DNA from: Mycobacteroides chelonae CCUG 47445
GTDB taxonomy: Bacteria; Actinomycetota; Actinomycetes; Mycobacteriales; Mycobacteriaceae
Length of the DNA stretch: 64,000 nt
Assembly: GCF_001632805.1 (NCBI RefSeq)
Contig: NZ_CP007220.1
Location: forward strand, 2,604,001 to 2,668,000
Reading direction: 5' to 3'
The notes beneath the pieces are model-generated. The model made no database searches, was not told the origin of the DNA, and worked only from the letters and a program-made list of their open reading frames with translations. The position numbers and the translations under genes were made by a program. Shown one piece after another: positions 16,055 to 18,315 of this stretch. How positions within the stretch are numbered: the first letter of the stretch is position 1; each line of letters starts with the position of its first letter.

Positions 16055-17473
16055 CTAGTGGTCGTCCTCGCCGATCCGGTGCACGTGGATCAGATTGGTC
16101 GAGCCTACTGTCCCTGGCGGAGCCCCCGCGACGATCACCACCAGATCTCCCCGTTGATAGCGCTCCATCTCCAGCAACGCCGTATCCACTTGTTGGATCA
16201 TGCCGTCGGTGGTGTCCATGACCGGGACGATGAAGGTTTCAGTTCCCCAGGTCAGCGCCAGCTGGCTACGTACCTCGGGCAACGGGGTGAAAGCCAGCAC
16301 CGGCAGCGGAGTGTGCAACCGGGCTAGCCGTCGCACCGTGTCGCCCGACTGCGTGAACGCCACCAGGGCCTTGGCGTTGAGCCGTTCGCCGATATCGCGC
16401 GCCGCATACGAGATGACACCGCGTTTGGTCCGCGGCACGTGAGTCAGCGGCGGCGCGCTCACCGAATGGCTCTCGACCGCGGACACGATGCGGGCCATTG
16501 TCCGCACTGCCTCCATGGGGTACTTGCCCACCGAGGTCTCCCCCGACAACATCACGGCATCTGCCCCGTCCAGGACCGCGTTGGCGACATCCGAAGCCTC
16601 GGCGCGTGTCGGGCGTGAGTTTTCGATCATCGACTCGAGCATCTGAGTCGCCACGATGACCGGACGCGCGTTCTCGCGCGCGATCTGGATGGCGCGCTTC
16701 TGCACAATCGGCACATCTTCGAGCGGAAGTTCGACGCCCAGATCGCCGCGGGCGACCATGATCGCGTCGAATGCCAGCACGATCGCCTCAAGGTTGGCGA
16801 CGGCCTCGGGCTTTTCCAGCTTGGCGATCACCGGCACCCGACGTCCGACGCGGTCCATGATGGCGTGCACCAGTTCGACATCGCCGGGTGACCGCACAAA
16901 TGACAGCGCGATGAGGTCCACCCCGAGTCGCAGTGCGAACTCCAGATCCGCGATGTCCTTTTCGGACAGGGCCGGCACCGAGACATTCATCCCCGGAAGT
17001 GAGAGACCCTTGTTGTTGCTGACCGGACCACCCTCGGTGACCCGGCAGACCACGTCATTGCCTTCGATGGCCTCGACGGTCAAGCCGACCTTGCCGTCAT
17101 CCACCAGAAGCCTGTCGCCAACAGCAGCATCGGTAGCCAACTGCTTGTACGTGGTGGAGACCCGGTCCGGGGTTCCCACGACATCCTCGACGGTGATCCT
17201 GACCTGTTCGCCCGTCGCCCAGTGGGTGGACCCGGTGGCGAACCGGCCCAGCCGGATCTTGGGGCCCTGCAGGTCCGCGAGTACGCCGACCGCGCGCCCG
17301 GTCTCGTCGGATGCCTTACGCACCCAGCGATAGTTCTGCTCATGGTCGGCGTGCTCGCCGTGGCTGAAGTTGAGTCGCGCGACGTCCATCCCGGATTCGA
17401 CAAGCTCACGTACAAGCTCGGCGGAACCGGTCGCAGGACCAAGGGTGCAAACAATCTTTCCGCGTCTCGTCAC
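16055..17473 (-). CDS. pykA: Pyruvate kinase
   Basis: Converts phosphoenolpyruvate and ADP to pyruvate and ATP. The 472-residue protein shows the expected order: TRRGKIVCTLGPATGS at the N-terminus, MDVARLNFSHG, the active-site block VPVIAKLEKPEAV near residues 215-227, MVARGDLGVELP, TQMLESMIENSRPTRAEASDVANAVLDGADAVMLSGETSVGKYP, and a C-terminal allosteric domain ending GTVGSTNLIHVHRIGEDD. It starts with GTG, and a TATGCT hexamer ends 8 nt upstream, so the mRNA is probably leaderless. tesB follows directly in the same frame. Confidence 0.97.
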   Translation of the reverse strand: MTRRGKIVCTLGPATGSAELVRELVESGMDVARLNFSHGEHADHEQNYRWVRKASDETGRAVGVLADLQGPKIRLGRFATGSTHWATGEQVRITVEDVVGTPDRVSTTYKQLATDAAVGDRLLVDDGKVGLTVEAIEGNDVVCRVTEGGPVSNNKGLSLPGMNVSVPALSEKDIADLEFALRLGVDLIALSFVRSPGDVELVHAIMDRVGRRVPVIAKLEKPEAVANLEAIVLAFDAIMVARGDLGVELPLEDVPIVQKRAIQIARENARPVIVATQMLESMIENSRPTRAEASDVANAVLDGADAVMLSGETSVGKYPMEAVRTMARIVSAVESHSVSAPPLTHVPRTKRGVISYAARDIGERLNAKALVAFTQSGDTVRRLARLHTPLPVLAFTPLPEVRSQLALTWGTETFIVPVMDTTDGMIQQVDTALLEMERYQRGDLVVIVAGAPPGTVGSTNLIHVHRIGEDDH

Positions 17474-17493
17474 GACTTTTGAGCATAGTCGTG
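17471..17493 (-). promoter_or_regulatory. pykA promoter: -10 TATGCT inside a perfect inverted repeat
   Basis: Arms CACGACT (17471-17477) and AGTCGTG (17487-17493) are perfectly complementary with a 9-nt spacer. On the minus strand the -10 hexamer TATGCT (17482-17487) lies inside, and the GTG start of pykA is the last three bases of the repeat. With the start only 8 nt after the hexamer, the transcript is probably leaderless, so the repeat is more likely a protein-binding site over -10/+1 than an RNA hairpin. Confidence 0.45.
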
Positions 17494-17560
17494 CAGATAC
17501 CTACTCACGAGTCAGCGCGGACACGATTCACCAAGCGGTTACCTTCACCGGTTTGCGTTG

Positions 17561-17875
17561 TCAGGAGGCCAATTTCAGACCGATGATGCCGGCAACGATC
17601 AACCCCAGGCTCAGTAGCCGCCAGACGTTGGCCGAATCGCCGAACAGCACGATGCCCAGGATTGCGGTACCGACAGCACCGACACCCACCCAGATCGCGT
17701 ACGCGGTGCCGACCGGCAGGCTTTTCATCGCAATACCCAGCATCGCGATGCTGATGATCATCGATCCGACAGTGCCGACGGTCGGCCACAGCCGAGTGAA
17801 TCCCTCGGTGTATTTCAGGCCGATAGCCCAGCCCACCTCGAGCAGACCCGCAAGAAGAAGGACCAGCCAAACCAT
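17561..17875 (-). CDS. sugE: SMR-family guanidinium exporter (Gdx/SugE)
   Basis: A 104-residue, four-helix small multidrug resistance protein that works as a dual-topology dimer. The sequence matches the Gdx/SugE branch: [17 protein letters not shown] with the central glutamate near residue 13, then [21 protein letters not shown] and [17 protein letters not shown] at the end. Gdx proteins export guanidinium by proton exchange. The ATG at 17875 is chosen because GTGGAGG at 17883-17889 is its ribosome site; an in-frame GTG at 17890 is part of that site. A guanidine-II type leader lies immediately upstream, which supports the Gdx call. Confidence 0.93.
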
Positions 17876-17898
17876 GAGAGATACCTCCACATTTCGGT

Positions 17899-17938
17899 GA
17901 GGCCGTCCCCTGGCGAAGAATTACCGGGTCGTCCCGGT
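17899..17938 (-). ncRNA. Guanidine-II (mini-ykkC) riboswitch candidate upstream of sugE
   Basis: On the minus strand two hairpins with ACGR tetraloops occur in tandem. The first (17938-17923) has a perfect 6-bp stem closed as CCGGG-ACGA-CCCGG. The second (17910-17899) has a 4-bp stem with one G-U pair, GGGG-ACGG-CCTC. They are 12 nt apart, and the sugE ribosome site begins 9 nt after the second. This is the architecture of the mini-ykkC/guanidine-II class, in which guanidinium docks the two loops and frees the ribosome site. The downstream gene is the expected one. Confidence 0.8.
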
Positions 17939-17958
17939 CATCTTCATTCTCTCACATG

Positions 17959-18315
17959 TCAATCGCGAAGCTGGCGACCTGCTTTATCGCTGACCTTGCC
18001 GCCGAAGATCAGGACCGCATCGACGACCGCCCAGATGACAGCGACGATTCCGAACGTCACCAGGCCGATCAGCAGCTGGACAACGCCGAGCAGCGTCTGT
18101 CCCAGATAGATCCGACCGAAGCCCAGAAATCCGACCAGGCCCAACAGTTGCAGCAGGCCGGCGATCAGCTTCGACTTATCTGAGTACGGCGCCCCGGTGG
18201 CTGGGTCACGCCCGTACGGGGCGGCGGGGTCCACATATGGGGGCGGATACGGGACGCCAGGCGATGGCGGCACCGGCGGAGGTGTTCCGAAAGGAGGCGG
18301 CGTGCTCTCGGTCAT
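17959..18315 (-). CDS. TM2-domain membrane protein
   Basis: A 118-residue protein with a Pro/Tyr-rich N-terminus (about 45 residues, PPPFGTPPPVPPSPG) and a TM2 domain: KSKLIAGLLQLLGLVGFLGFGRIYLGQ, then a second hydrophobic segment GVVQLLIGLVTFGIVAVIWAVVDAVLIF. TM2 proteins are widespread and functionally unassigned. The ATG overlaps the lgt stop by 4 nt, so it is the last cistron of the trp-lgt group. Rv1615/Rv1616-like proteins occupy this place in M. tuberculosis, but I am not certain of orthology. Confidence 0.82.
   Translation of the reverse strand: MTESTPPPFGTPPPVPPSPGVPYPPPYVDPAAPYGRDPATGAPYSDKSKLIAGLLQLLGLVGFLGFGRIYLGQTLLGVVQLLIGLVTFGIVAVIWAVVDAVLIFGGKVSDKAGRQLRD

Follow-up and report, generated by a model that had tools for sequence, protein, structure and literature searches.

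The leader of the guanidinium exporter gene gdx (synonym sugE) of Mycobacteroides chelonae CCUG 47445 very probably acts as a riboswitch of the guanidine-II (mini-ykkC) class, switching gdx translation on as guanidinium accumulates; here we infer ligand binding, the direction of switching and the donor lineage. The gene was studied in a 64,000-nucleotide stretch of contig NZ_CP007220.1 (hereafter, the window). Judging from its sequence, the short RNA ahead of gdx most likely senses guanidine, and the mycobacterial leader is a further member of the known guanidine-II class.

The features of the window described here lie on its minus strand. The leader is bounded by the stop codon of the upstream open reading frame (17959) and the gdx ATG (17875-17873). 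The first hairpin, P1 (17923-17938), reads ACCGGG-ACGA-CCCGGT, and both the sequence and the RF01068 alignment give it six base pairs and an ACGA loop (17932-17929). A 12-nt linker, AATTCTTCGCCA (17911-17922), placed by the sequence and the alignment of relatives, leads to the second hairpin, P2 (17899-17910), which reads GGGG-ACGG-CCTC and has an ACGG loop (17906-17903) on four pairs, one of them G-U. The original prediction, made from the letters alone, had claimed two such hairpins with these loops and a 12-nt linker, and the sequence bears it out. It had also placed a ribosome site 9 nt further on: a GGAGG Shine-Dalgarno (SD) sequence (17884-17888) is indeed present after P2, invariant in nine aligned leaders, but the spacing is 10 nt. 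From the SD it is 8 nt to the ATG, and from P2 to the ATG 23 nt, SD included. The first mechanical start of the gdx frame is an in-frame GTG at 17890, within the leader; we prefer the ATG because GGAGG precedes it and the family models start there.

The gene itself (17561-17875, 104 aa, PF00893) belongs to the SMR family. Its product scores 147.9 bits against the NCBIfam SugE equivalog model NF008512 (cut-off 126), which upholds the predicted sugE/gdx target; the other 20 listed models stay under their cut-offs, and the protein passes the SugE model and not the Qac, EmrE or Mdt models. By these family models the product is a predicted SugE/Gdx guanidinium exporter. SugE-type proteins have been renamed Gdx as guanidinium exporters according to a passage of PMC9574504, and a passage of PMC10499228 lists sugE in environmental mycobacteria. 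The upstream neighbour encodes a TM2-domain membrane protein (17959-18315, PF05154) and the downstream neighbour, pykA, pyruvate kinase (16055-17473, PF00224 and PF02887). A possible extended -10 promoter element, TGTGAGAGAATG (17945-17956), was picked out by eye from the leaders just before P1; a consensus scan of the minus strand from 17450 to 18050 lists no sigma-70 promoter and no terminator. To the eye, a TGTGAGA-type string before P1 in the mycobacterial leaders resembles one before P1 in Luteimonas gilva (L043), and is perhaps a promoter element carried along with the cassette.

The covariance model for guanidine-II, RF01068, matches 17940-17899(-) with 33.3 bits against a cut-off of 32 (E 0.0071 for 64 kb), so that the Rfam search proposed with the original prediction was passed by a margin of 1.3 bits. 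No other Rfam family exceeds its cut-off anywhere in the window, and this one does so once. Searching the whole genome (5,029,817 bases) yielded 12 RF01068 matches at E 10 or better and no second one over the cut-off, the next best reaching 22.4 bits. A scan for pairs of ACGR hairpins, each of at least 4 bp and joined by a linker of 7-40 nt, found this pair only on either strand of the window, where single such hairpins number 7 on the plus and 21 on the minus strand. The tetraloops of the class are given as ACGR in a passage of PMC5486947 and its linker range as 7-40 nt in one of PMC7544219. The leader thus scores above the gathering score, has two GC-rich ACGR hairpins with a linker in range, and immediately precedes the ribosome site of a guanidine-export gene, the SugE/Gdx equivalog.

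How much is an RF01068 score worth in these organisms? We counted the genomes with an RF01068 match over cut-off in samples that each include the window's own genome: for the GTDB genus the count is 7/297, for the order 9/298 and for the class 17/394. We fetched 31 of the over-cut-off places as loci, two further places having no locus, and looked for gdx and chaA by tblastn within about 1.5 kb: gdx follows six of the places and a ChaA-type gene four, while the other 21 show no sign of either. When inspection was extended to all 52 places of at least 28.8 bits, eight preceded gdx, six a ChaA-type gene and 38 neither in the fetched flanks. Several of the matches that lack both genes look, by eye, like GC-rich repeats such as GAGGACGACCTCG (L014, L150, L160, L177); the match in L014 (G095:C1:3755731-3755777) sits in a GC-rich repeat away from gdx and chaA. 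The RF01068 cut-off is permissive in actinomycetes and needs gene context, and we rejected the covariance score alone as proof because of the 21 of 31 fetched places without gdx or chaA nearby. What lifts the present case above chance is its position before gdx and its conservation in all nine orthologous leaders.

That conservation, and not the score, is the decisive evidence for a real switch. Although SMR genes (E 1e-8 or better) occur in 214 of the 297 genus genomes, only eight hold the gdx ortholog, at 93-100% identity, with the next best match at 54%. Together with Mycobacteroides sp. LB1 (L039) these eight genomes supply nine leaders, eight of them distinct in sequence; a second named record, L038, appears identical to the contig of genome G189. 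Both ACGR loops, a linker of 12-13 nt and the SD are present in 9/9 leaders, so that the loss of the loops in close relatives, which the original prediction had named as its refutation, was not found. Across the nine leaders the SD never changes, nor does the ACG of either loop, any of the six inner pairs of P1 or any pair of P2; counted over the eight distinct sequences, six P1 pairs and four P2 pairs are invariant and a seventh P1 pair occurs in four. Variation is confined to the R of the loops, the base of P1, the linker, the P2-SD interval and one spacer base. We also fetched the mycobacterial SMR loci that rank next (22 loci, L126-L147), and none of them has the ACGR loops within 160 nt. 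The leader is common to a mycobacterial clade. No two-sided pair change occurs among the eight distinct, very similar leaders and every shuffle equals the observed values; the covariation test is powerless within the clade because its leaders are so alike.

By analogy with the class, the leader would work as a translational ON switch; action of this kind at the ribosome site has been published for guanidine-II (passages of PMC9561414, PMC12186494, PMC5486947 and PMC9300104). Without ligand, P1 would most likely stay formed while the weak 4-bp P2 opens, and the opened P2 strands would pair with the SD and with the TCTCT spacer, keeping ribosomes from their site. Binding of two guanidiniums between the loops, ACGA on one side and ACGG on the other, would hold P1 and P2 together, and P2 formation would free the SD, allowing the exporter to be translated. 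Strand exchange by P2 is the likeliest, though tentative, switching detail in the folding models. The minimum-free-energy fold of 17942-17873(-) keeps P1 and opens P2, with GGGGA of the P2 5' side paired to TCTCT and the P2 3' side paired to the SD in a predicted OFF hairpin (17876-17910(-)) that is exclusive with P2. The fold is about as stable as those of shuffled sequences, the 70-nt stretch giving z -0.56 (53/200 shuffles as good) and a 39-nt stretch z -1.22 (25/200).

Across the eight distinct leaders, pairing amounts to 95.8% for the P1/P2 state and to 95.1% for a hairpin that differs slightly from the OFF hairpin; slid, the latter falls to 44-62%, and its four extra pair types are all one-sided. 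We computed predicted ligand-free ensembles for 49 two-loop leaders, the set being restricted to leaders that have a start codon and in which precisely two loops fall within 100 nt. In all nine mycobacterial leaders P1 is kept, P2 is closed with a probability of at most 0.03, and pairing between the SD and P2 runs at 0.71-0.79. Among the other 40, the SD pairs chiefly with the linker in 14, with P2 in 9 and with the sequence that follows P2 in 8, and has no main partner in the remaining 9. When the flanks beyond P2 were shuffled, SD-P2 pairing reached or exceeded the observed value in 1147 of 2000 cases. The predicted OFF state accordingly rests on P2 and the SD alone, since shuffled flanks pair equally well, and a flank specially evolved for the OFF fold found no support in this control. 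When P1 and P2 are forced and 12 coding bases are added, predicted SD accessibility rises in five of nine leaders (e.g. from 0.06 to 0.51) and stays at 0.22 in four, the window's included.

Two rival readings deny that the leader works as a switch. On one, the genome, being rich in GC, has produced two GC-rich hairpins that match the model by chance, a suspicion fed by the many actinomycete matches over the cut-off that have neither gdx nor chaA nearby. We consider it exceedingly improbable: no other double ACGR hairpin of this type occurs in the 64 kb, P2 sits at a short distance from the ATG of SugE/Gdx itself, and recurrence before the same ortholog in all nine leaders already contradicts chance. 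On the other, the leader is a degenerate, non-working relic of an imported riboswitch, gdx being constitutive or expressed with the trp-lgt-TM2 genes while the leader drifts. A P2 of just 4 bp with a G-U pair would fit such decay; so would the two of eight genus-genome leaders that fall under the RF01068 cut-off (30.2 bits), and the four leaders in which forcing P1 and P2 leaves the SD hidden. A drifting leader is nonetheless hard to reconcile with loop ACGs, inner P1 pairs, P2 pairs and an SD that are invariant in nine leaders while variation falls elsewhere, and we regard a relic as very unlikely, though less so than chance. The preferred reading is still that of a working guanidine-II switch.

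Several guanidine riboswitches described elsewhere bear on this reading. As described in a passage of PMC13064478, the sugE/gdx switch of Escherichia coli likewise has ACGA in P1 and ACGG in P2, followed by GGAG and then gdx; there, however, the proposed partner of the SD is linker L1/2 (a passage of PMC9300104), whereas here the predicted anti-SD consists of the P2 strands. The logic here matches that of the switch of Gloeobacter violaceus, for which the part of PMC5486947 concerned proposes a stem-loop that overlaps P2 and the ribosome site and is exclusive with the folded switch; it differs in host phylum and in having ACGA in both loops. Since a P2-overlapping OFF stem has already been proposed for G. 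violaceus, the platform is not new. For the Pseudomonas aeruginosa switch of the same class, guanidine-dependent translation initiation has been shown with ribosomes in vitro, but the proposal there is that the 5' and 3' flanks form a P0 helix in which the SD is hidden (passages of PMC9561414). Guanidine-III (ykkC-III) is also found beside SMR exporters, is translational and occurs mainly in Actinobacteria (a passage of PMC12186494), yet it is a pseudoknot and structurally unrelated; the window has no guanidine-III match over the Rfam cut-off. In some Actinobacteria guanidine-III is reported near arr genes, in a passage of PMC8492726 that names Mycolicibacterium.

The original prediction took guanidine-II to be mostly proteobacterial, which agrees with a passage of PMC12186494. 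RF01068 is listed in Corynebacterium glutamicum at 33.52 bits with the transcript 'not observed' (a passage of PMC3890552), so actinobacterial annotations exist. Among the papers listed in our literature search, which covered CC-licensed PMC papers, none reports a mycobacterial guanidine-II riboswitch, and none reports guanidine-II before chaA.

We come to the origin of the unit. The switch and the exporter were probably acquired horizontally together, from a proteobacterium. In this scenario the ancestor of the Mycobacteroides clade, whose name we take from relative L039, would have acquired switch and gene, inserted between the TM2 gene and pykA. Among the best 80 of at least 574 gdx relatives in the genome-contig search, two are mycobacterial records (97 and 94% identity) and 78 are not (L040-L117; 65-81%); of these 78, 76 are labelled Pseudomonadota, one Planctomycetaceae and one Sumerlaeota, and 42 have two GGACGRCC loops within 160 nt upstream. 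Identity to other mycobacterial SMR matches is at most 54%, or 54.9% by tblastn (L126-L147). The gene lies between TM2 and pyk at 10/10 gdx loci checked (nine genomes), with a TM2-pyk gap of 489-513 nt. Around 29 TM2 relatives (L197-L225) gdx is absent from the fetched stretch in every case; six of these stretches hold pyk, and in two the gdx-less junction is short (101 nt in L212, 91 nt in L215). In L200, L208 and L214 the TM2-pyk gap measures 499-569 nt without gdx, and therefore other DNA occupies the same junction.

In a quick tree of 109 rows, built on few columns and leaving most forks open, Mycobacteroides forms a clade with support 96 that falls among Pseudomonadota. We rejected this nested tree as proof of transfer. 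In a 64-row subset of the 109 rows, from which L076-L117 and L145-L147 were left out, we tested a tree in which a single branch separates all mycobacterial rows from the rest. It was not rejected (p-AU 0.847), and its score exceeded that of the free search by 13.85 log units; for both reasons the tree does not prove transfer. These results lend some weight to the alternative of an ancestral mycobacterial gdx with losses elsewhere, in place of an arrival from proteobacteria, a history that would leave the switch reading unaffected. So does base composition, which is slightly odd at most, with a GC of 0.606 for the gene against 0.643 for the window. We still find ancestry unlikely: it sits badly with a gene carried by so few genus genomes at such high identity, followed by a gap to 54%, with the lack of any actinomycete other than the two mycobacterial records in the best 80 of at least 574 relatives, and with the two short TM2-pyk sites without gdx. 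Transfer is likeliest on account of the distribution, the identities and the gdx-less sites, not of the tree. Among the matches listed in a plasmid search returning at least 5000 records, the best has 78% identity over 84% of the query, and none of the 15 listed is from a mycobacterium. Riboswitch-linked gdx on plasmids of Gram-negative bacilli has already been published (a passage of PMC12186494, and a title cited in PMC9574504).

During the survey of actinomycetes we also observed double ACGR hairpins ahead of genes for ChaA-type cation/proton antiporters, in eight of the nine actinomycete genomes in which we encountered the gene. The naming follows a PF01699 match for one gene, and the remaining antiporter genes of these loci we take to be ChaA-type as well. 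The hairpins lie ca 10-65 nt before the gene (L015, L169, L170, L171, L173/L231, L186/L234, L227, L232/L233); one locus belongs to the window's GTDB genus, and two of the eight (G656 and G966) came from protein searches independent of the RNA. Five of the eight leaders exceed the RF01068 cut-off. Their outer stem pairs vary: the sixth P1 pair is made by four pair types and is paired in 8/8, but the fifth is paired in 3/8. We saw no loops in the ninth genome (G1001), whose match starts at residue 94. The ChaA-type gene is rare: at E 1e-40 a single genome out of 198 from the genus has it, and at E 1e-60 four out of 246 from the class. We can offer only tentatively, as a somewhat doubtful proposal, that guanidine-II reached actinomycetes in two independent settings, as a proteobacterial cassette in Mycobacteroides and in ChaA-type leaders of scattered actinomycetes. 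If the latter setting is real, ChaA-type proteins would be an unrecognised kind of guanidinium/proton exporter, and the leaders point to a possible new guanidinium exporter family.

Elsewhere in the M. chelonae genome, a cluster (L244:2825-8721; G000:C1:4194824-4200720) encodes a TetR-like regulator, a urea-carboxylase-system permease, UAAP1, UAAP2 and a urea-carboxylase-like protein. UAAP1, UAAP2 and the permease each exceed their own cut-offs, and the TetR-like regulator has matches below cut-offs only. The urea-carboxylase-like protein, of 664 aa, has a match under the cut-off that covers urea carboxylase from position 448 to 1112, the biotin carboxylase part being absent. We take UAAP1 and UAAP2 to be those proteins annotated for urea metabolism that are carboxyguanidine deiminases. 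In the 18-kb stretch with the UAAP and urea-carboxylase-like genes, nothing scores above an Rfam cut-off. An allophanate hydrolase that passes its NCBIfam cut-off is encoded far from the other urea/guanidine-type genes (L246; G000:C1:1678945-1680525). The finding that proteins annotated for urea metabolism are carboxyguanidine deiminases is reported in a title cited in PMC9574504. It is possible that the L244 gene set serves guanidine or urea use.

A riboswitch class reported mostly from proteobacteria is thus extended to a clade of mycobacteria. The cell may meet or make guanidine, and the leader opens a testable question, namely whether these mycobacteria face guanidine. The probable joint transfer suggests, further, that an RNA sensor and the exporter it controls can move between phyla as one small unit.
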